The notes beneath the pieces were generated by a model. The model searched no databases. It was not told the origin of the DNA and worked only from the letters and a program-made list of their open reading frames with translations. 64,000 nt of DNA from Cohnella sp. AR92 (GTDB lineage: Bacteria; Bacillota; Bacilli; Paenibacillales; Paenibacillaceae), in NCBI RefSeq assembly GCF_003990975.1, contig NZ_RZJR01000008.1:292929-356928 (forward strand), given 5' to 3'. A program made the translations under genes and the position numbers. The stretch's first letter is position 1. Each line of letters begins with the position of its first letter. Below are positions 14,950 to 47,525 of this stretch, piece by piece.

Positions 14950-15402
14950 TCAATCGCAATACAGCGATGCGCTGAAGCTCTCCGGCCCGACCCTCACCAT
15001 GCCGGTGGCGTTCCCGCTCACGTAAACGGTGTATTTAACCGCGCTGTTCTCCTCCGCGGGGATGTCGTAATCGTTGCCCGAGACGGTGAACACCCTTACC
15101 GAGGCATCCACTAGCGTCGGCTCGCTCAAGGTGGCCGTATAGACCAGGACGGTTCCGCTAAGCGCGGCGTTGCCCCTGACCAGCTGCCGATAGACCGATA
15201 TCGTGACGTCCCTGAGGCCGCCAGGCTCGTACTGGATCGAGACGGAGGCGGTGAACTCGGCTCTCACGATGCCGGAAGGATCCAAGCAATTCAACCCGAC
15301 GACGGCGAAGAGCGCCTCCTGGCTCGGGGGAAGCAGCGGAATGGCCAAGCTTCTGGCGAAGCTGCTGTTCTGGCTCGTTCTGGCATCCAATAATCGGGTC
15401 AT
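14950..15402 (-). CDS. Hypothetical beta-rich protein, putative surface or spore protein (paralogue A)
   Basis: I do not recognise a named family. The 150-residue protein begins MTRLLDARTSQNSSF, lacks a signal peptide and membrane segments, and is rich in Val, Thr and Ser in alternating patterns that suggest a beta-sandwich or jelly roll. It is clearly related to the protein at 45099-45536: both begin with an R-S/T-x-N-S-S block followed by a PL-rich turn and ALF-V-GL, share YTATL in the middle, and end with RxGPE-F. GGAGAGGAGGGGGAG precedes the ATG. A CATAAAAT element 5' of the gene resembles mother-cell sigma -10 boxes. A spore-surface role is inferred only. Confidence 0.6.
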   Translation of the reverse strand: MTRLLDARTSQNSSFARSLAIPLLPPSQEALFAVVGLNCLDPSGIVRAEFTASVSIQYEPGGLRDVTISVYRQLVRGNAALSGTVLVYTATLSEPTLVDASVRVFTVSGNDYDIPAEENSAVKYTVYVSGNATGMVRVGPESFSASLYCD

Positions 15403-26246: not shown

Positions 26247-29200
26247 CTATTCCTCGCCTTCGTCCTCCAGGACGACGTCCAGAACGGTCGTTTGCCCCGC
26301 GATAATGATCGCAGTTCGATGCGCCGTCTGCTTCTCCGGGTAAGAGAAGGTCGCCGGAAGCTGTCCCGCAGGCAGATTGGATAAGGTATAACGTCCGCTC
26401 GCGTTGCTGACGGTAGAACGAAGGAACGTGAGCAGGGGCGCGGGAACCGGAGCCCCTCCTTGCCTTCTTCCGAAGCCGCTCCGGCTTCTGGATCTCGCCG
26501 CCAGCACGGCGGCCTTCTCCTCTTCCTGGAACAATTGAACGAGCGCGAGGTTAAGCGGCCGCCCGGACGTATCGCGAATCGTTCCCGTCAAGTTCCCGAA
26601 TTCGACGGGCAGAAGGAAGTTAACCACCGCCGACATCCCGCTCGTCAAGTCCGCGCGATGAGAAGCCGAAGCATACGTCGGAGCCGTCGCCGTCACGAAG
26701 TAGACCCCTGGAGATAAGGACCGGAACGCATACAGTCCGTCCCCGTCGCTCGCGACCGTCTCGATGACCACGAGGTTCTCGGTTAGAACGGAGATGACGA
26801 CGCCGGAGATCGGCGCTCCGGTCAGAGCGTTTCTCGTAATCCCGCTAATCGTTAGCGGGCTGGATCGAAGCTGCACGTTCAGGGAAGCTTGCTGACCGGG
26901 CGACAGGACAGAGGCCGCGTGGCCGAATTGATAATTCTGCGCGACGGCGATGATGTCCGTCTCGCTCTGCGAGCCGCTTCCGACGATGTAAAACCCCGAG
27001 CGGTCCGTCACTCCCTGCCCGACGATTATGCCATTGCGGTCAACGACGGACACGAGCGCATCAGGCAGAGGCTGGCCGGTCCGGATGTCCGTAACCATCC
27101 CCGATACGTTCGCGGTCGTTCGCCTCGCGCTGAGGTCGAGGCGGATCTGCTGCCCTCTGCCCGCGAAGAGGGACGACTGAACCGTATCGTAGCCGGTCGC
27201 CGACAGATTCAGCACGTAATTGCCTTCCAACAGCTCTTGGATGGAATAGAACCCGTTCTGATCCGACGTCGTTAAGCTCAGAGGCGCCGCGAAGCTGTTG
27301 AACGGGCGCAGGACAACGACCGCGTTCGCAAGCGGCTTGCCCGTGGAAGCGTCGGTGATGGTCCCGAACAGCGCGGCGGGAAGCGGCTGCAGCGCGAAGC
27401 TGTATTTGACGGAAGCGCCCGGGGTAATGGAGAAGCCTCCCTGACTGGCGGCGAAGCCCGACGCGATAGCGATGCACAGATAATCGCCGGGACGCAGCTC
27501 CGGATAGCTATACTGGCCGTTATTGTCCGTAAGAACGGTCGCGATCTGGACCTGGCTCCGGTTGAACAGCTTGACCTCGACGCCCGGAATCGCCGTTCCG
27601 TCGACCAGATTCGTCACAAAACCGAACACCTCGCCGGGATTCGGCTGCAGCGCGAAGTTCAAGACGATCGTCTCTCCCTCGGATGGATAAAGCGCCGCGG
27701 ACTCTGCGCCGAAGCCGACGGCGGAAGCGAACAGCGTTAAGCGGCCGGCAGCGGAGAAGCGGAACGCATAGTCTCCGTTCTGATCGGAGAATACCGTCTC
27801 GATCGGGAACCCGGTTCTGCCGTTCTCGGAGATCAAAGCTCCTTCGATCGGCGCGCCGGTCGAAGCGTTCGTCACCTTGCCGGTAATCGTCACGCCGCCC
27901 CGCGCAAGGACAACGGTCACTTCCACGGTTTTCTCCTCGTTCACGTATACCGTCTGAGAGTTCGTGATAAATCCGGCGGAAGAGACGCTTACCAGGTAAG
28001 TGTCCAGGGGCAAATCAGGAATAAAGAAGCTGCCGCTCTCGTCCGTGAATAAGGAAAGATAGAGTGTCCCGGCTATCGTGAACAGCTTGATGAAGGAGCG
28101 GTTGCTGGCGATAGCGGCGCCGTCCTCCGACACGACCCTGCCTAGGATGGAGCCGAGCCGCCTAGCCAGCGCAATTGAGGCGCTCGTGATCTGATCGCTA
28201 TCGACGGTTGCGCCGATCGCTCCGACGGCATAGCCTTCCGCGAACACCAGGATCGCATAAGAAGCCGGTCTTAGGTCGTTCACCAGAAATTCGCCGAATT
28301 CGTTCGTGGCTACGATGGCGACGACAAGCCCCGAAGCATCTGAGAGCCGGACGTTAATCTCGGCGCTGGCGATCGGCAAGCCTGTCGAAGCGTCCGTCAC
28401 CAGACCGCTGATCCCGCCGGGATTGGCCCTCAGCTCGAAGTCGACTCCGGTCAGCCGCTGCCCCGGAGCCAATTGGACCGCGCCGATCTCGCTCGCGAAG
28501 CCGACCGCCGAGACGATCAGGCTTAGCGTCCCCGTCGGCAGGTTGCTGACGACATAGCGGCCGGCGATTTCGGATTGACCGGAGCCGACAATGACCTCGG
28601 TGTTGTTGACGACCTCAATCGTGGCGTTCGGAATCGGGACTCCTTCCTCCGAAGTAATCGTCCCTTCGATAGAGCCCGGCAGGGGATGAAGCGTAATAAC
28701 CGCCTCCGAGCTGCCGCCCGCTTGAACGACGGCGCCGACCGGATCGGAGGAGAAGCCGTCCGCGCTGGCGACGACGACGTACGTTCCCGCCTTGAGGAAG
28801 GGGAACCGGAACCTCCCTCCTTGGAAGGTCGCAACCGATTGCAGAAGCACGTTATGAACGGAATAGAGCCGAATCTGAACGCCGTTCAGCGGAGGGACCA
28901 CGCTTCCCGTCAGCTCCCCGGTTACCTGCTGCAAGGCGATATTCGTCTGAGTGACCGTATCGGCCACCACGATAGCGCCCACGACAAAATTCTCGAAGAG
29001 CGGAGCCGCGGCGATAACCGTATAGCTTCCCGGACGCAGGCCGTCCAGCCGATAGAAGCCGGCGCTGTCGCTAAGGGCGGTGTCCAGCGAGATCCCGCTC
29101 TGGGTCAAGACGTTGATAGAGGTTCCCGCTATGGGCGCTCCCGTATCCCGATCGGTGACGACGCCTTGTATCGAGCCGGGCAGCGGCAGCAGCCGAACGT

Positions 29201-32006
29201 TCGCGACCGTCGTCTCGCCGGGGATAACCTCCCTCGTGACCTGGTCCGACCGGAAGCCCGGGGCGAAGATGAAGATCAGATAGAAGCCGGGCGCCAGTTC
29301 GTCGCTCGTATAGCTCCCGTCCTCGCCCGCGAATACCAGCGACACTTGCGCTCCGGTGGAGTTGCGAATCTCCACCGATACGGTCACCCCGGCGATCGGC
29401 TCCGACAGGTCGTTCAGTACGACCCCGGCGATCCTTCCCGGACTGCGCAGCAGCACGAAATCCAGCTGTTCCCGCGTTCCCGCCGCAATCTCGACGACGC
29501 CGGTCACCGTCTGGAACTGAGGGAAGGACACATTGAGAATATAGAGGCCCGGCGGCAGATCGTCGACGATATAAAGTCCCTTGTCGTCCGAGACCGTCTG
29601 CGTGAGAAGCAAGGTCGAGGAGAGCCGATTCTGGCTCACGCGGACGAACGCTCCTTGCAGCACGGCTCCGGCTTCATCCTTGACCGTTCCGAAGACGCTT
29701 CCCGTCAGCGGGCTTAGCCTAAATTCCAGTTCGGTATTCTCTAGAGGCTGAACCAGAGCCCCGAGCGATTCCGTGGCGAAGCCGTCGGCTTGAACGGTGA
29801 CAATGTAGAGCGATGGGTAAAGTCCTGTCACCGTGAAGACGCCGTCCTCCGCCGTCGCGCTCTGGACGATAACGACGTTGTTGTAGGACACCGTGACCAG
29901 CGCGTTGTCAATTGGAAGACCGGCTTCCGTGAAAACCGTTCCGCTGATGGAACCGGAGAGCGGCGTCAGGGAGAGGACGATGAAAGTATCCTGACCGGAG
30001 ACGATCTGAACGCTTAACGACCGATTCGCGAAGCCGGGTTCGTTCACGATAACCAGGTAAGGGCCGGGGCTAATCGAAGCGATGGCGAACTCGCCGTTCG
30101 CGTCCGTCGAAGCCTGGCTGAGGACGAACCCGCTAAGGTCCTGCAGGCTGACGGAGACGCCCGGAAGCGGATTTCCGTTCGCCTCCTGCAGCACCTGCCC
30201 GGATAAGCTTCCAGGCGCCGGCTTCAGGATAAAATTCACCGTGACCGCCTCTCCCGGACCGGCTCGAACGGACTTGACCGCTCCGCTAAAGCCGGGCGCC
30301 GACGCGCGAACGAGATAAGCGACTTGCGGGACGAGCTGATTCAACGAATAACGGCCGTTCGAATCGGTCTGCACCTCGAACTGCATGATGGCCTGCTCAT
30401 TCGTGAGCGTGACGACGGCTCCGGCGATCGGCTGGCCGCCCGCGGTCGTGACGAGGCCGTTCACTTCTCCGGGCTCGGGAACCAGCGCAATATTCAACTG
30501 CTCAGTCGATCCAGGCGCAAGGTCAAGGACGACCGAATGCTGCTGGAATCCTTCCGCGCCCGCCAGCACGCGGAGCAGCTCGGCGGACAGCCCGGCAATG
30601 GAATAAGAACCATTCGAATCCGTCGTTGCCTCCCCCGCCGGAAGGCCGACCGCATTCAGGAAACGTACCGTCGCCCCCGCGATCGGCAACCCGTCCAGCG
30701 CCGACAAGACGGTGCCGAACACGGACGCCGGTTCCGGTACGAGCAGGACGTTCACCTCAAGACTCTGATTCGCCCCAATAACGATGGGAATAAGCTGAGT
30801 CTGGAACAACGCATGGGTGAATTGCAGCGTATAGCTCCCGGGAGGGATGCCAGATAACCCGTAGCCGCCTTCGGACGTCGACACTCCTTGCGGGCTGCCG
30901 GGGGGAAGCAGCTCGACAAGCACGCCGCTCAGAGGAAGCCCGTTGTTCTTGTTCTGGATGAGGCCGGATACGCTCCCCACAGCCTGAACTTGAACCTGCT
31001 GCTGTCCTGTCAACTGAGGCAGCGAATTGCCGGTGAGTAGATCGATCCCGTTCACCGAATAGAAATAAAGAGTCCGGGAAAGGGATTCCGAGAAAATAAG
31101 AGTGATAGTCGCCTTAAGAGTCGCCATTGCGCCGTTCGGCAGGTTGCCGATATTCCAGCTTAACGTTCGGGAGGAGGCGTTATAATTAGCGTTCCCGACG
31201 GTCGCGCCGGAGATCGAGACGCTCTGGATTTGCCCTTCCGGAAAGGCAAGCGCAGCGGATACCGTCGAGGCTCCGCTGGAACCCATGTTGCTTACCTCAA
31301 AGCTAATCTGAAGCGCGGCGACTTCGCCGGTGAACAAAGCGGCCGGAGGGTCGATAATCATTGCGGAGGCTTGAAGCTCGGCCCGTGCGTTGGCTTGGTT
31401 TAAGGTAAGAACGTCGGAGAAGGGCAAAGAATCGCGGTCGAACCCGCGCGTCGTAGAGGAGGTGAAGAACAGAAACCGGAGAGGAGACCTCGCATTGATG
31501 GCGAGCTGACTGAACAGCGTTCCGGTATCGATGGAAAAATCAAGAAAATAGTTCGGTGTCCCTCCAAACGAGGAGCCGTCTTCCGTGAGACGAGCCCTCG
31601 CGAGGTCGAAGTTGTTGATCGGCCGGTGAAAATTCGGGAAGCCGTTGCCGTCCGAGCCTTCCGGCAGGTCGGCCAGCGGATTCGCGCCTTGAACGCTGTT
31701 GCGGATGAGCGCGATCCAGCTGCTGCCTCCGAGAACGGCCAGCATCCACTCGTAGGCGGACGAGTTGTTGTCGGTATCGATCAGCACTCCCCAAACATCG
31801 TTCTGGAAGCTCGTATTGGAGCGAGGATCTCCGCGAAGACGGATGCGAAAATAAGCATTTTTGCCGTCAAAAGCATAGTAGGCTGGCGGGAACTGCGGAT
31901 CTCCAACAATATCGGAATAGGCCGGCGAAACGTCGTTCGCCGGATCCGAAGGAATCGCCCCCGCCACGCGGATAGGAACAAACTGAACACTCGATGGAAC
32001 AGCCAC
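26247..32006 (-). CDS. Giant multi-repeat protein with carboxypeptidase-regulatory-like domains
   Basis: A 1,919-residue protein without catalytic motifs. Residues 1 to about 220 form an N-terminal domain (with FDGKNAYFRIRLRGDP and a VLIDTDNN segment); about 220-350 look like a DUF11-type beta-sandwich; then about 18 repeats of roughly 85 residues follow, each of the form G-x-ISG-x-V ... PIAGA-x-V ... D-x-NG-x-Y-x-I-x-L-x-PG-x-Y (CarboxypepD_reg fold), ending in an acidic tail. There is no signal peptide, membrane span, LPXTG or SLH motif. The GTG at 32006 is chosen because GGGAGGT lies six bases upstream, ahead of an earlier in-frame TTG. A spore-coat, exosporium or non-classically exported fibre is my inference. 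Confidence 0.82.
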   Translation of the reverse strand: MAVPSSVQFVPIRVAGAIPSDPANDVSPAYSDIVGDPQFPPAYYAFDGKNAYFRIRLRGDPRSNTSFQNDVWGVLIDTDNNSSAYEWMLAVLGGSSWIALIRNSVQGANPLADLPEGSDGNGFPNFHRPINNFDLARARLTEDGSSFGGTPNYFLDFSIDTGTLFSQLAINARSPLRFLFFTSSTTRGFDRDSLPFSDVLTLNQANARAELQASAMIIDPPAALFTGEVAALQISFEVSNMGSSGASTVSAALAFPEGQIQSVSISGATVGNANYNASSRTLSWNIGNLPNGAMATLKATITLIFSESLSRTLYFYSVNGIDLLTGNSLPQLTGQQQVQVQAVGSVSGLIQNKNNGLPLSGVLVELLPPGSPQGVSTSEGGYGLSGIPPGSYTLQFTHALFQTQLIPIVIGANQSLEVNVLLVPEPASVFGTVLSALDGLPIAGATVRFLNAVGLPAGEATTDSNGSYSIAGLSAELLRVLAGAEGFQQHSVVLDLAPGSTEQLNIALVPEPGEVNGLVTTAGGQPIAGAVVTLTNEQAIMQFEVQTDSNGRYSLNQLVPQVAYLVRASAPGFSGAVKSVRAGPGEAVTVNFILKPAPGSLSGQVLQEANGNPLPGVSVSLQDLSGFVLSQASTDANGEFAIASISPGPYLVIVNEPGFANRSLSVQIVSGQDTFIVLSLTPLSGSISGTVFTEAGLPIDNALVTVSYNNVVIVQSATAEDGVFTVTGLYPSLYIVTVQADGFATESLGALVQPLENTELEFRLSPLTGSVFGTVKDEAGAVLQGAFVRVSQNRLSSTLLLTQTVSDDKGLYIVDDLPPGLYILNVSFPQFQTVTGVVEIAAGTREQLDFVLLRSPGRIAGVVLNDLSEPIAGVTVSVEIRNSTGAQVSLVFAGEDGSYTSDELAPGFYLIFIFAPGFRSDQVTREVIPGETTVANVRLLPLPGSIQGVVTDRDTGAPIAGTSINVLTQSGISLDTALSDSAGFYRLDGLRPGSYTVIAAAPLFENFVVGAIVVADTVTQTNIALQQVTGELTGSVVPPLNGVQIRLYSVHNVLLQSVATFQGGRFRFPFLKAGTYVVVASADGFSSDPVGAVVQAGGSSEAVITLHPLPGSIEGTITSEEGVPIPNATIEVVNNTEVIVGSGQSEIAGRYVVSNLPTGTLSLIVSAVGFASEIGAVQLAPGQRLTGVDFELRANPGGISGLVTDASTGLPIASAEINVRLSDASGLVVAIVATNEFGEFLVNDLRPASYAILVFAEGYAVGAIGATVDSDQITSASIALARRLGSILGRVVSEDGAAIASNRSFIKLFTIAGTLYLSLFTDESGSFFIPDLPLDTYLVSVSSAGFITNSQTVYVNEEKTVEVTVVLARGGVTITGKVTNASTGAPIEGALISENGRTGFPIETVFSDQNGDYAFRFSAAGRLTLFASAVGFGAESAALYPSEGETIVLNFALQPNPGEVFGFVTNLVDGTAIPGVEVKLFNRSQVQIATVLTDNNGQYSYPELRPGDYLCIAIASGFAASQGGFSITPGASVKYSFALQPLPAALFGTITDASTGKPLANAVVVLRPFNSFAAPLSLTTSDQNGFYSIQELLEGNYVLNLSATGYDTVQSSLFAGRGQQIRLDLSARRTTANVSGMVTDIRTGQPLPDALVSVVDRNGIIVGQGVTDRSGFYIVGSGSQSETDIIAVAQNYQFGHAASVLSPGQQASLNVQLRSSPLTISGITRNALTGAPISGVVISVLTENLVVIETVASDGDGLYAFRSLSPGVYFVTATAPTYASASHRADLTSGMSAVVNFLLPVEFGNLTGTIRDTSGRPLNLALVQLFQEEEKAAVLAARSRSRSGFGRRQGGAPVPAPLLTFLRSTVSNASGRYTLSNLPAGQLPATFSYPEKQTAHRTAIIIAGQTTVLDVVLEDEGEE

Positions 32007-32099
32007 CGGATGACCTCCCTCAACAGCCGACTTTTTAAGCAACTATTAGGAAGGTATGACGTGCTCTGATCGCCTATGTACGTTGACTGCGAACGGCCG

Positions 32100-37650: not shown

Positions 37651-37679
37651 ATCATACTTGTTTCTCGCCTATCGGTCAA
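37651..37679 (-). promoter_or_regulatory. Sigma-A promoter of the riboswitch-thi operon
   Basis: On the minus strand TTGACC (37674-37679) and TATGAT (37651-37656) are exactly 17 bases apart, about 30 bases upstream of the TPP aptamer. The -35 overlaps the stop codon of the preceding glycosyltransferase gene. Confidence 0.8.
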
Positions 37680-39214
37680 CCGTTTGCGTCGCGATCCGGC
37701 GATGCCGGCGGGGCTTCCCGGTCGCGGGAGTCTTCTAGTCTAGCAAGCGCATGGCGGACGTGCTTCCGCGCTTCCTCGAAATAAGGCTCGTCGCGGTAAT
37801 GCTCCTCGAAGATGTCCTCGAAGCCCGCGACATCCGTCCCCAGGCCTTCCTCCTCGCTCTGCTTAAGCCAGGGCAGCACCAGGTTCTGAACCAGAAGCAG
37901 CTTCTCCCGCGAGAGGGCCTCGGAGCCGAGACCGCGTCCGGCGAAGCTCCCCAGCACCTGCAGGTACCCGCGAATGAAGTAGTCGCCGAAGTTGTAACCC
38001 GCCGGTTCGTTATAGGCATGGGAGAACCGGTTGCCGCGAACGAGTCCGAAAAGGGGATTGCGCTCGAGCAGCCGATAGACCCAATGGACATGGTTAAAGC
38101 CGCTTCCGACGTGCCGGTCCAGCCCTTCCATGCCGAGGAGCGCCTCCCTATCGAGGATAAGGGAGGTGATAAAGCCCGCATTGAAGGAGGCCTCTCTCAG
38201 GAAATCGTCCATTCCCTCGCCCGCCTCCAGCCCTCCCTCTTCCCGCAGAATGTCCAGGAACAGCACCGAGCGGTTCCGCAGCTGGAGCACCGCGTGAAGC
38301 AGGGGCTGAACGGTCGTCGGCAGGAAAAAATCGTCGTCCCCGTGCAGCTTCAGGAACTTGCCCCGGGCGAACGGGATCAGTTCGAGAAAATTGCGCTCCG
38401 CACCCAGATTGGCCGCATTGCGGCGCACGCGCAGCCGGGGATGCTGCTCGACGAAGCCGGCCAGCACGCGCGGCGTCTCGTCCGTCGAAGCGTTGTCGGA
38501 GACGCAAACCTCGATGAGCCCGTTCTCGCCGATCTGCGGGAGCAGCGTCTCCAGGCACTTTTGAAGATCGGACGCCCGATTGTAAGTCGGAATCCCGATC
38601 GTCAGAAGCGGGCGCTCCCGCCTGGCCCGGAGCAGCTCCCGCAGCTGCTCTTCGTCCCGAATCCGCACCCAATCCCCGGCATCCGGATCGAACGCCTTCA
38701 CCACCTTGGCGGGAGAACCGATCGCCACGCAGTAATCCGGAACGTCCCGGGTGACGATGCTGTTCGCTCCGATGACGCAGCCCTTGCCGATCTTGATCGA
38801 GCCGGCGATCACGACGTTGGAGCCGACCCAGGTTCCTTCTCCGACGACGACGCTGCCGTCGGTTCTCGTGATGCCCTGATGGATGACGGGCAAGCCGACA
38901 TAGCGGTATTGATGATCCGTATCGGCGATATAGACGTTCGGGCCGAAGGCCGAATGAGGCTCCAGAACGATCGAGTTGGCGGCCGAGAGCCGCAGGCCGA
39001 AGTGGGTATGGACGCCGTCTCCGATGACGATCTTCGGCCGCTCGCCCGTTACCGGCGTGCAGACGTTCAGCCAATAGCCGTACCGGAGCACGACGCCGCT
39101 GCCGATCGAGATCTCCTCCGCGCCCATGACCTGCCCCGGCTGCTCGATCTGGTTATAGCGGCCGAACGAGAAGAAAGGAAGGTCCTCCGGACGGCTGCCT
39201 GCCGATTGGTTCAT
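37676..39214 (-). CDS. Fusion of hexapeptide-repeat acyltransferase and GT2 glycosyltransferase
   Basis: The 512-residue protein joins two enzymes. Residues about 20-190 are a left-handed beta-helix acyltransferase of the LbetaH type (IGDGVHTHFGLRLSA, GTWVGSNVVIAGSIKIGKGC, GSPAKVVKAF). Residues about 215-500 are a family 2 glycosyltransferase (LLTIGIPTYNRASDLQKCLETL, VSDNASTDET, and the metal site HGDDDF). The frame runs far upstream into another gene; the ATG at 39214 is chosen for AAGGAGGTG seven bases before it. It is the last gene of the glycosylation island and probably adds and acylates a sugar. Confidence 0.88.
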   Translation of the reverse strand: MNQSAGSRPEDLPFFSFGRYNQIEQPGQVMGAEEISIGSGVVLRYGYWLNVCTPVTGERPKIVIGDGVHTHFGLRLSAANSIVLEPHSAFGPNVYIADTDHQYRYVGLPVIHQGITRTDGSVVVGEGTWVGSNVVIAGSIKIGKGCVIGANSIVTRDVPDYCVAIGSPAKVVKAFDPDAGDWVRIRDEEQLRELLRARRERPLLTIGIPTYNRASDLQKCLETLLPQIGENGLIEVCVSDNASTDETPRVLAGFVEQHPRLRVRRNAANLGAERNFLELIPFARGKFLKLHGDDDFFLPTTVQPLLHAVLQLRNRSVLFLDILREEGGLEAGEGMDDFLREASFNAGFITSLILDREALLGMEGLDRHVGSGFNHVHWVYRLLERNPLFGLVRGNRFSHAYNEPAGYNFGDYFIRGYLQVLGSFAGRGLGSEALSREKLLLVQNLVLPWLKQSEEEGLGTDVAGFEDIFEEHYRDEPYFEEARKHVRHALARLEDSRDREAPPASPDRDANG

Positions 39215-39228
39215 GCTGCTGCACCTCC

Positions 39229-39990
39229 TTACAGCCGAGCATAAGAAATCCAAGGATCGAAGGGGAACCGGCGAAGCTCGGTCTCGCGGATCGGAAGCAT
39301 CTCCAGCATCGCCTGCGTCTCGCCCGGGAACGCTTCGCAGTTCAGCTCGTCGAAGCAGACGACGGCTCCCTTCGGCATCCGGGGCAGGAACAGCTCCAGC
39401 GCCTTCTTCGTCGGCTCGTAGAGATCGAAGTCGAGGTAGAGCATCGCGACGAGCAGGTGCGGATGCTTGCGCAGGTACGCCTCTCCCGTTCTCAGGAAGT
39501 CGCCCGGAACCAGCTCCAGGTTCGGAATATGGGCCAGGTCCCGCTCGGCGTCGTACTTGCGGGCGGATTCCCTCAGCGAATCGAGCGTGTCCCCCCGCAT
39601 GTCTCCGGGGGAGAATTCCTTCTCCGGCTCGTCGTCCTCCTCGGACAAGGAAGGGAAGCCTGCGAACGTGTCGAAGCCGATGATCTTGCGGGAATGGTTG
39701 GACGGCTCGAAAATATTGGCGAACTGGGCCCAAGCGAACAGCCCCGCCCCGTTGAAGACGCCGCATTCGATGATGCTGCCGTTCACCGCTTGAAGCTCGC
39801 GGTAGATCTCGTACCGCGCCAGAAACCTTGCGATGCTTCGCTTCGTGGCGAAACGCGGGAACGCCTCCAGCTTGTTGACCAGAGACGTCTCGGAGGAACG
39901 GAAGGCCGCTTCGGCCATCCGGCGGACCTTCCGGTCCCGGCCGGATTGATGGCGGGCGATCGCTGCCCACGAAGAGGGCTCCTTGCGCAT
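39229..39990 (-). CDS. TylF/MycF-family O-methyltransferase
   Basis: A SAM- and metal-dependent sugar O-methyltransferase of the macrocin O-methyltransferase family. The 253-residue protein has SIIECGVFNGAGLFAWA (SAM loop), IIGFDTFAGFP, and the metal-binding block LYLDFDLYEPTKKAL with a following FDEL. Relatives methylate deoxy sugars of antibiotics or surface glycans. It lies between the CDP-glucose dehydratase gene and the fusion glycosyltransferase, so a methylated deoxy sugar is a likely product. Confidence 0.87.
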   Translation of the reverse strand: MRKEPSSWAAIARHQSGRDRKVRRMAEAAFRSSETSLVNKLEAFPRFATKRSIARFLARYEIYRELQAVNGSIIECGVFNGAGLFAWAQFANIFEPSNHSRKIIGFDTFAGFPSLSEEDDEPEKEFSPGDMRGDTLDSLRESARKYDAERDLAHIPNLELVPGDFLRTGEAYLRKHPHLLVAMLYLDFDLYEPTKKALELFLPRMPKGAVVCFDELNCEAFPGETQAMLEMLPIRETELRRFPFDPWISYARL

Positions 39991-39993
39991 GGC

Positions 39994-41418
39994 TTACACG
40001 CTCCTTCCAGGTGTCTCGGCAGGCGCCGAAGCGTATTTGGCGAGCTGCCCCAGCGAGAAGCTCAGCAGCTCCTCCTCGTTCGCCCACGCCCGGTACCAGT
40101 CGGCCGTCTTGCGCACGGCTTCGAGGGCCGTCCAGCGGGGGCGCCAGTCTAATCTCGCTTCCGCTTTGGAGCTGTCGAGGCGCAGCGAGAGCGCCTCTAG
40201 GGCTCTTTCTCCGCCTTCCGCAGGCGCGGTCCGTCGAGGAGGGGCCTGCGGCGAGGATGGCGTTGGCGGTTGCGGCGATGGGGAATGCGGCGATGACGGT
40301 TGCGCGGAGGAAGGCGGCAACGGATGCGGCGAGGATGTCGGTTGCGGCGTTGGCGGTTGCGATGATAACGTTGACGGTTGCGTTGATGACGCTGGCGGTT
40401 GCCCGGATGACGATGGCGATTGAGCGGATGACGGTTGCAATGGCGATTGAGCGGAGGATGGTGCCGGCGCAGGCTCCGCGAGAGCCTCCGCCTCAGCCGC
40501 TGCAGCCGCCTCGCCCCGCAGCGCCGCCGTCAGCGCGGCGGCAAGCCAGCCCGCCGTCCGGCAATCCGCCGCCGACGGGCCGAAGTTCCAGGGCCCGGCG
40601 AACGCGTCGCCGCCGGCCCAGAGCGCTTCCGCCAGCCGGAGGTAGCCGGCCAGCGGCTCCAGCACGTGCTGCCACGGGCGAATCGCCCCGGGCAGCCGCA
40701 GCTGCGGTTCGCGCCCCGCCCGCCAGGCGCGAACCGCATCCGGCGCGAGCCTGCCTTCGGCGAAGTCCCCGCCGCCGATGACGTTGCCCGCGCGCGCCGT
40801 GGCGACGGAGGCCGGATGCCCGCGGCCCGGCCCGAAGAACGAGCGGCGGTACGCCGCCGTCACCAGCTCCGCGCACGCCTTGCTGGCGGAGTACGGGTCG
40901 GCGCCGCCGAGCGGGTCTTCTTCGGTCAGGCCTCTCGGCGCTTCCGGATTGTCGTAGCATTTGTCCGAGGTGACGACGACGACGGCGCGGACGGAATCGG
41001 TTCGCAGCACGGCGTCCAGCAGGCGGGCCGTTCCGATCGCGTTCACCTCGAACGTCTCCGCCGGGCTGCGGTAGCCGGCGAGCACGAGCGGCTGAGCCGC
41101 CAGATGAAGCACGATATCGGGAGAGAACGCCGCCATCGCGGCGGACAGCCTCGTCCCGTTCCGGATGTCTCCCGTCGCCGACGGAACCAAACGGTCGATC
41201 CCTGCCAGCTCATAGAGGGAAGGAGCCGGCAGCTTCCCCGCGCTGTAGCCGAACAGCTCCGCCCCCATGCTGCTCAGCCACAGGCTGAGCCAGGAGCCTT
41301 TGAACCCGGTATGCCCCGTGACGAGTACCCTCTTGCCCTTCCAGAAGGCCCGATCCGGCAAGCCTCCCTCTCCCGCTTCCGCTCTGCCGGCTGCGGCTTG
41401 GCGGGTTCCCTCCCGCAC
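39994..41418 (-). CDS. rfbG: CDP-glucose 4,6-dehydratase with low-complexity insert
   Basis: RfbG converts CDP-glucose to CDP-4-keto-6-deoxyglucose, the entry to CDP-linked deoxy sugars. The 474-residue protein has the NAD motif GHTGFKGSW, the catalytic YSASK, and the family block PWQHVLEPLAGYLRLAEAL. Residues about 300-395 hold a Pro/Ser/Gln/Ala-rich stretch absent from ordinary RfbG (about 360 residues); the DNA there is a degenerate repeat of GGCGATGG-like units. The start is GTG four bases after the upstream stop. No rfbF (cytidylyltransferase) is in this window. Confidence 0.88.
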   Translation of the reverse strand: MREGTRQAAAGRAEAGEGGLPDRAFWKGKRVLVTGHTGFKGSWLSLWLSSMGAELFGYSAGKLPAPSLYELAGIDRLVPSATGDIRNGTRLSAAMAAFSPDIVLHLAAQPLVLAGYRSPAETFEVNAIGTARLLDAVLRTDSVRAVVVVTSDKCYDNPEAPRGLTEEDPLGGADPYSASKACAELVTAAYRRSFFGPGRGHPASVATARAGNVIGGGDFAEGRLAPDAVRAWRAGREPQLRLPGAIRPWQHVLEPLAGYLRLAEALWAGGDAFAGPWNFGPSAADCRTAGWLAAALTAALRGEAAAAAEAEALAEPAPAPSSAQSPLQPSSAQSPSSSGQPPASSTQPSTLSSQPPTPQPTSSPHPLPPSSAQPSSPHSPSPQPPTPSSPQAPPRRTAPAEGGERALEALSLRLDSSKAEARLDWRPRWTALEAVRKTADWYRAWANEEELLSFSLGQLAKYASAPAETPGRSV

Positions 41419-41422
41419 CGCT

Positions 41423-43810
41423 TCAGCCCTTCTTGCGGCAGACCGCTACCGCATAGGTCGGCCTTGCGTTCTTGATACGCCCGAGCGAGGCCGGGGCGAA
41501 GTACTTGGCTTGCTCGGGGGGATAGCCCGGGAGATCGGACGGGCTTGCGCCGAGAGCTTCAGCGATGTCCGGCCAATCCGGAGCGACGTAGCGGTTCTGC
41601 CCGACGAACGTCTGTCCATAGATGCGCTCGATATCGTAGAGCGCCGACAGCTCGCCGACGAACTCTCCCAGGGAGTACTCGAAGCAATGGTAAGGATTGC
41701 TCATCGACTGCCCGAACTGGCGATTCGGGTTCGTCACCTCGCGGTTGGGAGTCGAGATAATCAGCCTTCCTCCGGGCTTCAGCACCCGGGCGGCTTCCTT
41801 CAGCCATTCGGAGCCGTCGGGAACATGCTCGATCGTCTCGAACGAGACGACGAGATCGAATACGCCGTTACGGAAAGGCAGAGCCAGAACGTTGCCTTCC
41901 TGGAAAACAACCCCAGTGCCCGAATAATCCCGATTGGCCAGTTGGATCGAAACGGGATCGATGTCGATCCCGGCAACCTCCAGCGCGCCCGCATCCTTCA
42001 GCATCCTCGTTCCGTAGCCCGCTCCGCAGGCGGCGTCCAGCACGAGCATGCCTTGGCAGTAGTTCTGAGCCAGCTTGTATCGGAACAGATGCTCCGCGTA
42101 AACATCGGGATGGCTGCCGAGCACGGCGTCATTCAGAATGAGACGCTCCCCCGTGAAGACGACGTCGTGCTGGGAGGCCGGAAGATTCCCGGAGATCGCG
42201 GCGGGAGGAACCGAGCTGGCTGAAGAGGGGGAAGCCGCAGGTTCCCGAGAAGGGGCAGGGGCCGGTGTAGACGCGGCAGGTCCCGGAACTTGCGGTACGT
42301 GTGCTTTCGATGCTTGTGCTTGCAGTGCTTGTGCTTGCAGTGCTTGTGCTTGCGGTGCTTGTGCTTGCGGTGCTTGTGCTTTCGATTCCTGCGCTTGAAG
42401 CAACGCCGTCTCCTTCCCGGAAGGCTTCGCCGCCGGGGCTTCCCGAACGAGCGGGATCGTCTTCGTCGCCGCTCCGCGAACCGCGCGAACCAAGTAGTAG
42501 AGCACCGAGAAGTCGTCTCTCCTCCCCCGGCCCATCAGCTTAAGAAGCGCTTCTACCGCATCCGGATCGATGACGTCCGCCGTTTTGGCGATGGCGACTC
42601 CCTCGTAGCCCGCTTCCTCGAACCGCCTTCTCGTCTCGGCTTCGGACAGCATGGTGTAAGGAATCAGCCGATTCTGCGGAGCCAGATACGCTTTGACGTG
42701 ATTGAAGTGCAGCCGGTTCGGCACGGTCGCGAGAAGCGCGCCTCCCTCCTTCAAGAGTCCTGCCGCGGTGCCGAGGGCTTCCGGCGATACGACGGTGGGG
42801 AAAATGTCATGAAGCAGAACGACATCATAGCCGTACTCCCCGTCCTCGCTCTCCCATTCCGACGGATCGGGGATCGACCATACCTTCTCCGCCAGCAGCG
42901 AGGCCGCTTCCGCCGCGGGCGCATGAGCCTCGAAGCCGAACAGCCGGGCATCCGGATAACGGTTCTTTAGCTCCAGAAGCGTTCCTCCGCAGCCGCAGCC
43001 GATCTCCAGCACCTTCAGCCCCTTTTTCCCCTTGAGATAGGGTTCCAGGGCATCCAGCGCGTCCGTCCGAATGTTCATGGCGAACGCCGGATGGAAGCCC
43101 CACTTCTTCTCGAACCGGACGGAATTCTCCCTCAGCAGCCTGCGCAGAAGCTCCTCGTCATGGCGAAAAGAAGCGCTGCCCTCGTGATGAATGAAGGTGT
43201 CCGAGCAGAGAAGCAGACGATAGCCCGCCCGGCGCGCCCGCCAGCTCCAATCGTCGTCCTCGAAGTTGCCGATGCCGAAGCTCTCGTCGAGCTCCCCGAC
43301 CTCCTCCCAGACCTTCCTCTTGATCAGCAGGCAGAAGCCGATCAGCTTGAGCCTCATCTTCCATGCGCTCGGCGTCGAGACGTTATAGGCTTCGGCGAAC
43401 CTCTCCAGCTCTTCGGGAGTTTTGTATTTGGTCGGAATAGACTGTCCGTATCCCGCAAGATTCGCTACCGGCCCGACCGCCGCGATATCGTCCGCGCTCT
43501 CCAGCGCGATCGTCAGCTGCTCCAGCCAACGGGGAGTTACGGCGGTGTCGTTGTTGAGCAGCAGCAGCCGGTCTCCTGTCGCAGCCCTGGCGCCTTTGTT
43601 GACTCCCTTGGCGAAGCCTTCATTCTTCTCATTCTCAATCAGCTTCACGTCCGGCTGCTCCCTGAGCCAGTCCGCCGTTCCGTCGGTGGAACCGTTATCG
43701 ACGAAGATCAGCTCATAGCTGCCTTCCTGCGTATGCTTGCGGATGCTGGCGAGGCACCGGCGAGTCTCTTCGATCTGGTTGAACGTGACGATAACGATGC
43801 TAGTTCTCAT
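41423..43810 (-). CDS. Three-domain protein: GT2 glycosyltransferase plus two methyltransferase domains
   Basis: The 795-residue protein holds a GT2 domain (1 to about 250; MRTSIVIVTFNQIEETRRCL, VDNGSTDGT, and the NNDTAV metal site), a first SAM methyltransferase (about 265-440; KVLEIGCGCGG), a linker with repeated QAQAP/QAQAL units, and a second methyltransferase (about 560-790; VLDAACGAGYGTRML, VVSFETIEHV). Such chains are found in surface or spore glycan clusters. The ATG overlaps the stop of the upstream glycosyltransferase gene (ATGA), so the two are translationally coupled. Confidence 0.88.
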   Translation of the reverse strand: MRTSIVIVTFNQIEETRRCLASIRKHTQEGSYELIFVDNGSTDGTADWLREQPDVKLIENEKNEGFAKGVNKGARAATGDRLLLLNNDTAVTPRWLEQLTIALESADDIAAVGPVANLAGYGQSIPTKYKTPEELERFAEAYNVSTPSAWKMRLKLIGFCLLIKRKVWEEVGELDESFGIGNFEDDDWSWRARRAGYRLLLCSDTFIHHEGSASFRHDEELLRRLLRENSVRFEKKWGFHPAFAMNIRTDALDALEPYLKGKKGLKVLEIGCGCGGTLLELKNRYPDARLFGFEAHAPAAEAASLLAEKVWSIPDPSEWESEDGEYGYDVVLLHDIFPTVVSPEALGTAAGLLKEGGALLATVPNRLHFNHVKAYLAPQNRLIPYTMLSEAETRRRFEEAGYEGVAIAKTADVIDPDAVEALLKLMGRGRRDDFSVLYYLVRAVRGAATKTIPLVREAPAAKPSGKETALLQAQESKAQAPQAQAPQAQALQAQALQAQASKAHVPQVPGPAASTPAPAPSREPAASPSSASSVPPAAISGNLPASQHDVVFTGERLILNDAVLGSHPDVYAEHLFRYKLAQNYCQGMLVLDAACGAGYGTRMLKDAGALEVAGIDIDPVSIQLANRDYSGTGVVFQEGNVLALPFRNGVFDLVVSFETIEHVPDGSEWLKEAARVLKPGGRLIISTPNREVTNPNRQFGQSMSNPYHCFEYSLGEFVGELSALYDIERIYGQTFVGQNRYVAPDWPDIAEALGASPSDLPGYPPEQAKYFAPASLGRIKNARPTYAVAVCRKKG

Positions 43811-44895
43811 ACCGAATACCCCCCTTGCTCAAGCGCTTCCTTCAGCTTGGCGCGGTTGGAGAGCAGGTTCGGATCGTTCGGCATGTGATGGAGCGCCTTC
43901 TCGTTATGCTCGTATGCCTTCTCGAGCTCGCCCAGCAGTCCGTAGCAGATGCATAGCTGGAGATGGGGAAGCCAAGTCCAAGCGATCAGATTGACGACGC
44001 CGAAGTGGTGAACCGGCAGCTCTAATTGAAGCGCGAGCTCATACCAGAAAATCGCCTTCTTGATGTCGCCCTTATCCTGATAACAATAGCCGATCGCGCA
44101 GCAATGATCGGCTCTCGGCAGATCGTAGGCCATGATCCGGACGAGGGATTGCAGCTTGCGCTCCTTGTCTCCGAGGAAGTGCCAGCACTCCGCCAGCTTC
44201 GAGCAAGCGAGCACGTAATCCTCGTAATACTGGTCCGGCTGCGTCAAGAAGAGCTCGTAAGTCTCCGCCGCTTCCTTGAATTGCTGCGAATCGGCCAGCT
44301 CGTTCGCGTAATAGAGCACGTTGCGTCCCGAGAGCCCGCCCTCCCGCTCGATGATGCGCTTGAAGATATCCAGGTTGCGGGCCGAATGGCTTCCGCGGCG
44401 ATCGTGGGTGACGGCGATATCGGTCAAGTAGACGTTGCCGTCCACCTCCAGGTACTCGTGAATGGGATTGTGCCACTTGAAGCCGCAAGCTCTTCGGACG
44501 AGCCGGTTGCGCTTGGCCATCGCCGCGGGCTTGCCTTCCGCGTCGAATGCCAAGTGATATTCCATCGCGACCGAGTCAACCTCTGGATCCAGCGTAGCTT
44601 TCAGCTCCGCGAACAGCTTGCGATCCCGCTCCAGGAACCGGTCGTCCGCGTCCAGCCACAGAATGTACTCTTCGGTCGCGAGCGAGAAAGAATAATTGCG
44701 GGCGGCCGCGAAATCGAATATCCATTCGAAATCGTGGACGCGGGCGCCGTAACGGGCGGCAATCTCCTTCGTTCGATCCGTTGACCCCGTATCGACGATA
44801 ACGATCTCGTCGACCAGGTCGGCGACCGATCCGAGACACCTGTCCAGCACCTCTTCTTCATTCTTGACGATCATGCATAGGCTGACAGTAACCAC
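43807..44895 (-). CDS. GT2 glycosyltransferase with C-terminal TPR-like region (SunS-like)
   Basis: The 362-residue protein has an inverting family 2 domain (VSLCMIVKNEEEVLDRCLGS, VDTGSTDRT, ILWLDADDRF) and a C-terminal half of helical repeats with YYANELADSQQFKEAAETYELF, similar to SunS-type transferases that glycosylate peptides or proteins. The GTG at 44895 is chosen since AGGAGG lies six bases upstream inside an earlier TTG frame. It opens the glycosylation island and may be the transferase that attaches the first sugar. Confidence 0.86.
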   Translation of the reverse strand: MVTVSLCMIVKNEEEVLDRCLGSVADLVDEIVIVDTGSTDRTKEIAARYGARVHDFEWIFDFAAARNYSFSLATEEYILWLDADDRFLERDRKLFAELKATLDPEVDSVAMEYHLAFDAEGKPAAMAKRNRLVRRACGFKWHNPIHEYLEVDGNVYLTDIAVTHDRRGSHSARNLDIFKRIIEREGGLSGRNVLYYANELADSQQFKEAAETYELFLTQPDQYYEDYVLACSKLAECWHFLGDKERKLQSLVRIMAYDLPRADHCCAIGYCYQDKGDIKKAIFWYELALQLELPVHHFGVVNLIAWTWLPHLQLCICYGLLGELEKAYEHNEKALHHMPNDPNLLSNRAKLKEALEQGGYSV

Positions 44896-45000
44896 GCCGT
44901 TCCTCCTTCGGCCCAATGGCTGTGTACTCTGTCCCAGTCTATGCGGCGAATATCGGCTCCGCTTGGACAGGTGTGAACGCCTGAGCCATATTCAAACGAC

Positions 45001-45098: not shown

Positions 45099-45536
45099 TC
45101 AGCCCGGTGCGCTATGAGACGCGATTCCCCAGAACACTTCGGGTCCCGAACGTACGCCGCTCAGGACGATGAGAGGGCCGCCGAAGATGAAGGCCGAGTA
45201 GATCGTTTCTGCCGCGGCCGGAGCGAGCAGGTCTTGCGCCGAGAAGGAATAGAGATCCCCGAACAAGGACACACGAACGCCAAGGGTAGCCGTATAAATG
45301 ACGTTAGCCGCATTGTAAGTCGTCGTGCCGCGAAGAACTTGAATGGTGAACGTGTTGCCAACGACCGGATCGCTAATGCCTACCGTACCGTTCAGCGTAA
45401 TGACCTTGTTCACAACGTTGCCGGTTTGCAAGCCAATAACGCCGAACAGAGCCGGGGTCGTCGTCAGCGGAACATTGGGGAACCCCGTTCTGCTCGAGTT
45501 CATCGAGCTTCTAAGATCAAGAAATGTTCCCACCAT
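45099..45536 (-). CDS. Hypothetical beta-rich protein, putative surface or spore protein (paralogue B)
   Basis: The 145-residue protein begins MVGTFLDLRSSMNSS and shows strong alternating hydrophobic/polar patterns with no signal peptide. It is a paralogue of 14950-15402: shared RSS/TSxNSS head, ALFGVIGL/ALFAVVGL, YTATL and RSGPEVF/RVGPESF. AAGGAGGTG precedes the ATG by five bases; the GTG within that site is not used. CATATCAT about 30 bases upstream of the ribosome site resembles a mother-cell sigma -10. It lies next to the glycosylation island, so it could be a target, by inference only. Confidence 0.62.
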   Translation of the reverse strand: MVGTFLDLRSSMNSSRTGFPNVPLTTTPALFGVIGLQTGNVVNKVITLNGTVGISDPVVGNTFTIQVLRGTTTYNAANVIYTATLGVRVSLFGDLYSFSAQDLLAPAAAETIYSAFIFGGPLIVLSGVRSGPEVFWGIASHSAPG

Positions 45537-45726
45537 GTTCACCTCCTTTATTGTGAAGATAGAACATGATATGTCATCTCTCGTCCTCCCGTTTGGACAA
45601 TCCTTTAAGGCAATGGCGTATTTATCTGGGAGTATGCCAGAGTTACGTTTGGTTCATAGCATAGGATGACGCTTATCCATCGACATATATTATTTTATTA
45701 GAAGAATAAGGAGCTGAGACGCAGGC

Positions 45727-46812
45727 GTGACACCCGAGCTGCACTTGTTTATCGTATGGGAGAGAGCCGCCCCCTTCGTTCAGCCGATCATGAACGATAT
45801 TCTAACCAAGTTTACCGTCAAGAAAGCTTTTCAGATCCATTGGACCCCATCCTACTTCCCTCATAACCTCTCTCGTTTCTACGGGCAGCAGCTTCCCCCG
45901 GGATCCGAGAAGGAGCTTCACTGCGGCAACGGTCCGTTCTTCTGCATCATCGTGGCGGATGAGCAGCCGGTATACGGACTGCGCCAGACTTCCAGAGGAC
46001 CCGCCATTGTCAACACGAACGTCTTCGATGCCAAGGCTCTTTATCGCCATTGGACCGGAGGCGGCCACCTGATCCACGCGACGAATACCCCCCAGGAAAG
46101 CGCGCATGATTTGAACTTGTTGATCGGATGGGATCCGAATATCTTTCTGAAGGCATTTCCGGGAGCATGGGATGGGCAATGCCCGGTACTAAAGCAGGAT
46201 CTTGCCGGAACGCTTGGCTGGCGAGACTTAAAGCAGGTCCTCGCCGTGCTCAACTCGACTTCGGACTACGTCATCTTGCGCAACTTCGAGCAGCTGCCGG
46301 ATCGCTTTATCTCGGAGCAGCACGGCGACATCGACTTGCTGGTGCGGAACCCAATCGATATCGCGTACCTCTTGAACGGGGATCTCGTGTTTCGAGAGCC
46401 TGAACGGGTTCACTATCGAATTCTGATAGGCGGGCAATTGGTTTATTTCGATTTCCGCTATGTCGGAGACGGTTATATGGATGAGGAATGGGAACGAAGC
46501 CTCTTAAGGAACAGAACCTTCTCGCCGAAAGGCTTCTATACGCCGAATCCGGAAGATTGCTTCTATAGCTTGCTGTACCATGCCGTCATTCACAAACGAT
46601 CCGTAGCGCCCGATTATTTCGCCCGCTTGTGCGAGATGGCGAAACGCCTGAAGCTGGCGGATTTCGATGCTTCCACCTTGCTGGACCCTGCGCGGTTGCA
46701 GCTTTTTATGAACCGTTATTTGAACGATCGGAGATATCGATATACCGTTCCCCGCGATCCGTCGGTCTATTTCAATCAGCGATTTATCGAACGTAAGCAG
46801 ACGGCATTATGA
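45727..46812 (+). CDS. NDK-like domain fused to a nucleotidyltransferase-fold domain
   Basis: The 361-residue protein is not a family I can name. Residues 1-135 resemble nucleoside diphosphate kinase: hydrophobic LHLFIVWE start, PFVQPIMNDILTKF helix, GPFFCIIV strand, and HLIHATNTPQES, which parallels the NDK active-site IIHGSDSVES with His117 at the phospho-His position. Residues about 165-361 look like a nucleotidyltransferase: LRNFEQLPDRF, the metal pair GDIDLLV (Asp201, Asp203) and a third acid in YFDFR (Asp242). The GTG start is weakly supported (AAGGAG 13 bases upstream). It overlaps the kinase-like gene by four bases. GC is lower than in neighbours. Confidence 0.7.
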   Translation: MTPELHLFIVWERAAPFVQPIMNDILTKFTVKKAFQIHWTPSYFPHNLSRFYGQQLPPGSEKELHCGNGPFFCIIVADEQPVYGLRQTSRGPAIVNTNVFDAKALYRHWTGGGHLIHATNTPQESAHDLNLLIGWDPNIFLKAFPGAWDGQCPVLKQDLAGTLGWRDLKQVLAVLNSTSDYVILRNFEQLPDRFISEQHGDIDLLVRNPIDIAYLLNGDLVFREPERVHYRILIGGQLVYFDFRYVGDGYMDEEWERSLLRNRTFSPKGFYTPNPEDCFYSLLYHAVIHKRSVAPDYFARLCEMAKRLKLADFDASTLLDPARLQLFMNRYLNDRRYRYTVPRDPSVYFNQRFIERKQTAL

Positions 46813-47525
46813 CGAGTATCAAGAAATTAAGCGCCCATCTGGAGCGAACCTATCCTTTCGCCAATCTCACTCCTTATTTAACCTCTTATTCGCACCATGG
46901 CTTTAGTTACTTGGAAGGAAATTCAACGAAGGACGGCAGAAGAATATTCATCAAAGTTGATGGCACCGGCGGGGACGCCGCTTGGCGCGAGGCAAACGCG
47001 CTCCGTCTACTCGACATCCCGAACGTCCCTCGAGTTATTGCTTATGAAGCGGGCGGACCGTTGTCCTTCGTCGCATTGGAATGGCTCGATGCCGTGTCTT
47101 TGGAAGCCTTATTGAAGCATCGCCCGCTGCTGCAGCCCGCCCGGAAGCTTCTTTTGCTAAATCAATTGTGTGCGGTACTGCAGGCGCTGCACGGCGCCAA
47201 GATCATCCATCGCGACATTCGCCCGGCGAACATCATGATCGAGATGAAGAACGAGAATTGGAAGCTTGTTCTTATCGATTTTGCTTTCTCCCTTCGGCTG
47301 GGCGGTGATCGTTGGCCGGAGCTCAGCTTCTTCGACCTTCAGCCGGAGTTGCTGGCCGTGCTTGGCGGAGAACGATACAAGCAGGATCGGTATGTATGGG
47401 ATGACGCTTACGCCGCCTGCCAAGTCGCGCTCGACATCGATCCGCAATGCCATCTGAATTACCCCGATATTTGGAATCGGCTGATTGCCATGATAGGCAA
47501 AATAAATTACGCCGCGATAATCTAG
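46809..47525 (+). CDS. Protein-kinase-fold protein partner of the NDK/nucleotidyltransferase gene
   Basis: The 238-residue protein has kinase landmarks: Lys49 in IFIKV, Glu61 in WREANAL, the catalytic loop HRDIRPANIMI (His134-Arg135-Asp136, Asn141), and DFA at 157-159 where most kinases have DFG. No membrane segment or sensor domain follows. The small size and HRDIRPAN loop recall RIO/KdkA-type kinases that phosphorylate sugars or small molecules as much as protein kinases. Its ATG overlaps the stop of the upstream gene (ATGA), showing a dedicated pair. The glycosylation island lies 2 kb away. Confidence 0.75.
   Translation: MTSIKKLSAHLERTYPFANLTPYLTSYSHHGFSYLEGNSTKDGRRIFIKVDGTGGDAAWREANALRLLDIPNVPRVIAYEAGGPLSFVALEWLDAVSLEALLKHRPLLQPARKLLLLNQLCAVLQALHGAKIIHRDIRPANIMIEMKNENWKLVLIDFAFSLRLGGDRWPELSFFDLQPELLAVLGGERYKQDRYVWDDAYAACQVALDIDPQCHLNYPDIWNRLIAMIGKINYAAII

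Follow-up and report, generated by a model that had tools for sequence, protein, structure and literature searches.

In Escherichia coli O9a, WbdD adds a phosphate and a methyl group to the chain end, a mark that Wzt then reads, as set out in the excerpts of PMC3482155 used here. WbdD (a kinase-methyltransferase) and Klebsiella pneumoniae O7 ORF6 belong to systems with ABC-transporter export and methyl or methyl-phosphate caps, and the excerpts of PMC3482155 and PMC11231755 make no mention of a nucleoside diphosphate kinase (NDK)-like or pol-beta nucleotidyltransferase (NTase) domain in either protein. In the case of pseudomycoidin, the kinase PsmK acts first and the NTase homologue PsmN then acts on the phosphorylated acceptor, a peptide, other readings of PsmN being possible (an excerpt of PMC9266682). 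Here we describe, in a 64,000-nucleotide stretch of the genome of Cohnella sp. AR92 (contig NZ_RZJR01000008.1, positions 292,929 to 356,928; hereafter the window), two adjoining genes that apparently form an undescribed three-domain enzyme set, recurring in many bacterial phyla: the first encodes a protein with predicted NDK-like and NTase domains (protein 1), the second a small kinase. Like WbdD and O7 ORF6, the pair would couple a glycan kinase to a second transferase; unlike them, it brings in NDK-like and pol-beta NTase domains, and we know of no such domain in WbdD or O7 ORF6. The order proposed below, kinase then NTase, resembles that of PsmK and PsmN on their lasso peptide, whereas the acceptor proposed here is a glycan; PsmN and the NTase domain of protein 1 may be related.

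Results

Domain composition and conservation

Both genes and their four-base overlap (ATGA) lie where the initial annotation of this DNA had placed them (Table 1). Fold prediction points to an NDK fold for residues 1–147 of protein 1 and to a pol-beta/MNT NTase fold, with a D-x-D motif and a third Asp, for residues 148–361, in keeping with the two cores proposed in that annotation. Conservation was read from the window sequence together with those of 58 loci, 59 in all; the other nine of the 67 loci surveyed were dropped as broken or divergent. Irrespective of the partner gene, H117, R107, E124 and W11 are conserved in 59/59 sequences and K62 and K103 in 58/59 each; in the NTase domain D201 and D203 are likewise invariant (59/59) and D242 is kept in 57/59. 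The His and the three acidic residues singled out at the outset are thus kept in all or nearly all of these sequences.

HHalign set H117 opposite the NDK His in a weak match (E 0.01, probability 4; controls 0.3–0.76), and the remainder of the NDK His motif is partly kept in the family; because global alignment to NDKs with HHalign and MAFFT was unreliable, residue equivalences past this motif are tentative. Pfam gave no NDK (PF00334) match to protein 1 at E<=1. In NDKs, strand 1 ends with a conserved catalytic Lys that binds phosphate. At the inferred register of this Lys, position 11, all 59 sequences carry Trp, and in the alignment of relatives (16 of the 120 matches listed dropped) the conserved positions among residues 1–40 include no Lys or Arg. 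W11 speaks against plain NDK activity, and the NDK chemistry first ascribed to the domain appears doubtful in view of this Trp and of two viral loci, L077 and L078, which keep NTase and kinase but have no NDK domain. Compared with NDKs (PF00334), protein 1 differs both in the Trp at the Lys position and in its fusion to an NTase.

The NTase domain differs from ANT/MNT nucleotidyltransferases and FKRP/LicD, with 5–15% identity in the structural rows listed. A LicD profile, built from four sequences only, did not match protein 1, and NTP_transf_5 (PF14907) reached E 0.21 and 11.6 bits, under the Pfam cut-off of 31.2; a profile comparison (E 2.4e-4, probability 43) suggests a distant kinship of protein 1 with NTP_transf_5. 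A strong NTase-versus-kinase profile match was discarded as circular, since the kinase rows cut from fusions carry NTase flanks.

No family in NCBIfam or PADLOC matched protein 1, Pfam returned nothing significant, and PDB sequence searches with the protein and with its profile gave no relevant match. Relatives were not found in plasmid and phage records, and those listed elsewhere are named hypothetical or uncharacterised protein by their sources, besides one illegible string. A description of the NDK-like/NTase and kinase combination was likewise not found in a literature search limited to open PMC papers.

The kinase matched Pkinase (5.1e-14), APH (4.3e-7) and Kdo (5.2e-7) in Pfam, all above cut-offs. 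K49, E61, D136 (the HRD Asp) and D157 (the DFG Asp) are conserved in 40/40 kinases of the family and Asn141 in 35/40, and its sequence places the protein in the HRD protein-kinase-like superfamily. The DFA motif, which the initial annotation had treated as a special feature, is not distinctive, because the residue following DF is Ala in 9 of the 40 relatives and Gly in 17. The kinase also matches 36 PADLOC families, which we take to be general Ser/Thr kinase models.

Gene coupling across the family

Coupling was surveyed in the 67 genome loci on our own open reading frame (ORF) picks, without use of annotation, the kinase being called by our own profile. The kinase gene directly follows in 16 loci, and in 8 others the kinase is fused to the family protein, so that the neighbour kinase suggested for this family is conserved, adjacent or fused, in 24/67. 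Among the 120 relatives listed there are 8 precomputed kinase fusions and 6 methyltransferase fusions, and in other relatives methyltransferase, GT2 or WbsX domains are joined to the core. On a tree of 59 rows (the nine loci again dropped), the kinase label falls on 22 rows with 10 changes, 2 of them forced by well-supported branches, which indicates that the partnership is old or recurrent. The replacement of the kinase by methyltransferase or glycosyltransferase in relatives suggests that what usually stays constant is the NDK-NTase core.

Several members depart from the common architecture. A 2142-residue protein (L049:9989-16417) carries methyltransferase, WbsX and GT2 domains besides the family core; four members of 858–902 residues (L031:5041-7617, L043:9980-12646, L046:203-2911, L071:7156-9819) have some 500 C-terminal residues without a Pfam match (E<=0.01); and three family genes (L006:8442-9446, L048:9932-10906, L067:9977-11777) are apparently shortened or frame-split. 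The divergent alphaproteobacterial loci L063, L064, L065, L066, L068 and L069 have lost the D-x-D motif in 6/6 cases and kept the NDK-like His in 5/6.

Two of the seven viral loci (L077:9995-11032, L078:9476-10480) carry viral-type fusions of NTase and kinase that lack the NDK domain; a reading of them as NDK plus kinase was ruled out by their sequences. With the L078 protein as query, 301 relatives were found among 1634 candidates, and every one of the best 120 has a kinase domain and a length of 316–358 residues, into which a third domain would not fit. In both loci a glycosyltransferase gene directly follows the fusion; relatives of the fusion were not found in named phage records. Separately, Foldseek aligned three giant-virus entries of BFVD (A0A5K0UAL1, A0A1V0SAX2, A0A481Z0W0) over 351–442 columns (E 3e-6 to 4e-5) at a root mean square deviation of 15–19 Å; two of the three are named glycosyltransferase.

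Glycan and exporter context

The glycan context of the family is well supported. A Wzt-type ABC exporter gene lies at most two ORFs upstream in 21/67 loci and a Wzx-type flippase gene in 12/67, according to our own motif and profile calls, the Wzx profile having been seeded with ten hand-picked upstream proteins chosen for their membrane spans. These calls broadly agree with Pfam, which found 22 Wzt_C, 12 ABC2_membrane, 18 GT2 and 11 Polysacc_synt matches among 99 upstream proteins (59/68 first and 40/64 second upstream ORFs); a downstream scan of 51/66 proteins gave 15 Pkinase, 8 GT2 and 6 methyltransferase matches. Within the 24 kinase-coupled loci, Wzx was found in 9 and Wzt in 2. Wzt is followed by a family-methyltransferase fusion in L013 and L016 and by a family-kinase fusion in L044 and L056. 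The link to surface glycans first drawn from the neighbouring glycosylation island is hence carried by the exporter and glycosyltransferase neighbours of the relatives, the local island contributing less. That island, a divergent cluster (Table 1), also carries further GT2, methyltransferase and dehydratase genes.

Table 1. Features of the window discussed in the text.
Feature	Position	Strand	Basis or remark
Protein 1 gene	45727..46812	+	361 aa; start GTG
Predicted NDK-like N-terminal domain, residues 1–147 of protein 1	45727..46167	+	His117 in HLIHATN
Predicted pol-beta/MNT-like nucleotidyltransferase domain, residues 148–361 of protein 1	46168..46812	+	D201/D203, D242
Small HRD kinase, DFA variant	46809..47525	+	238 aa; start ATG; Pfam matches, conserved residues, coupling
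CATATATTA, tentative sporulation-type -10 element	45684..45692	+	43 nt upstream of start codon
Divergent glycan gene cluster	37676..44916		
GT2-TPR glycosyltransferase, end of the glycan cluster	43807..44916	-	Glycos_transf_2 1.3e-21
Short protein between gene pair and glycan cluster	45099..45542	-	no Pfam match (E<=0.001); weakly like the following protein (28% identity, E 0.008)
Short protein	14950..15402	-	no Pfam match (E<=0.001)
1931-aa protein	26247..32042	-	18 CarboxypepD_reg stretches

Occurrence and promoter region in Bacillales

The family is single-copy in the window's genome and present in 3/37 genomes of the genus (this one included) and 0/23 others of the order; the lower GC content of the pair (0.531 versus 0.595) is consistent with horizontal acquisition. 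Two Bacillaceae loci, L009 and L048, encode a morphogenetic spore coat protein of the BMQ_0737 family (3.2e-62 and 4.3e-60), and the sugar-gene scan, made on L009 only, found an Rml-like set there with B and D above cut-offs and A and C below. The motif CATANNNT occurs within positions -60 to -26 in 5/6 Bacillales loci versus 1/54 others, with an AT-matched chance of 0.03–0.06 per locus; in the sixth, L007, it stands at -32 and is clipped by the edge of that interval, and in L006 the gene start is uncertain. The full SigK consensus (taken from an excerpt of PMC9562818) and a strict SigE box were each found in 0/6 Bacillales loci, which leaves the evidence for a sporulation-type promoter weak. 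The target in Bacillales may be a spore-surface glycan, and we treat the spore link as a lead only.

Discussion

Our preferred reading, a tentative one with slightly less than even confidence, is that the two genes form a cassette that acts in the cytoplasm, ahead of export or during it, to modify a surface polysaccharide or the lipid-linked precursor of such a polymer. As to substrates and order of steps, we infer that the kinase would first place a phosphate on a sugar hydroxyl of the glycan or precursor; the NTase domain, through its D-x-D metal site, would then use a nucleotide or nucleotide-activated donor to transfer a group onto that phosphate or sugar, so that the glycan would be decorated or capped with a phosphate or phosphodiester. 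Binding of the nucleotide or phosphate might fall to the NDK-like domain, possibly with a phosphohistidine intermediate on H117. A bolder version, which we consider improbable, is a new class of glycan capping machine: the conserved NDK-NTase core, carrying a phosphohistidine on its NDK-like domain, and an exchangeable arm (kinase, methyltransferase or glycosyltransferase) would cap exported polysaccharides with a nucleotide-derived phosphodiester. In many phyla the polymers so capped would be capsules and O-antigen-like chains, in Bacillales a spore-surface glycan.

Several observations weigh against the cassette. By our profile 43/67 loci have no kinase partner, implying that the kinase step is dispensable in places. 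The sequence match to NDK is weak when taken alone and the presumed Lys position is occupied by Trp; the NTase fold match is modest, its Foldseek E never falling below 0.001. The glycan genes of the window lie on the opposite strand to the pair, Wzt_C is absent from the window's genome, unlike in WbdD-type systems, and a scan of the five other Bacillales loci found neither Wzt nor Wzx. Finally, the best PADLOC match of the kinase is PD-T4-6, a defence kinase model, whose score (6.3e-19) beats that of its Pfam match.

Of the competing explanations we rank chain termination first, followed by donor synthesis, then regulation, with toxin-antitoxin or defence last. A WbdD-like terminator would stop chain growth by modifying the non-reducing end, to be read by the C-terminal domain of Wzt, with the partner setting the type of cap. 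The partners fit known caps (methyl phosphate, methyl, sugar; excerpts of PMC11231755 and PMC3482155). The 21 loci with Wzt close upstream, and the fusions directly behind Wzt in L013, L016, L044 and L056, recall exporter-terminator layouts. Yet Wzt stands just upstream in only 2 of the 24 kinase-coupled loci, and 12 of the 67 loci have a Wzx-type flippase in its place, a route for which we know of no such caps; together with the lack of Wzt and Wzx hits at the five other Bacillales loci, this makes termination unlikely. We give still less credence to the synthesis of an NDP-activated donor for the neighbouring glycosyltransferases, in which the kinase would phosphorylate a rare sugar or alcohol for the NTase to activate. 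Salvage routes usually pair a kinase with a nucleotidyltransferase in this way and glycosyltransferases are close by, but a recognised kinase is absent from most loci, methyltransferase and GT2 domains occur as fusion partners of the core too, and the usual substrate of pol-beta-fold NTases is an acceptor rather than a sugar-1-phosphate.

The four-base gene overlap and the presence of the Pkinase catalytic set would also suit a regulatory kinase whose target is the NDK-NTase protein or some other enzyme acting on glycans. Against this, the small-molecule kinase models Kdo and APH score above cut-offs too, and in the 60 PDB kinase rows listed, out of 2157, the alignment to the 260-position profile stops no later than position 199, shortly past DFG, so that the activation segment seems reduced; regulation accordingly ranks as a slimmer prospect than donor synthesis. 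That NTase and kinase work as a toxin-antitoxin or defence pair on the lines of TglT-TakA is very improbable: kinase and NTase form single chains in 8/67 loci and in the viral family, methyltransferase or GT2 domains replace the kinase in other relatives, the context is one of exporters and glycans, and PADLOC has no match for protein 1.

The preferred reading, a glycan-modifying cassette, would mean that a family often found directly behind polysaccharide exporters provides an undescribed way to mark or finish surface glycans; chain length, export and recognition can all depend on this step. If true, the NDK fold would gain a role beyond nucleotide balance.
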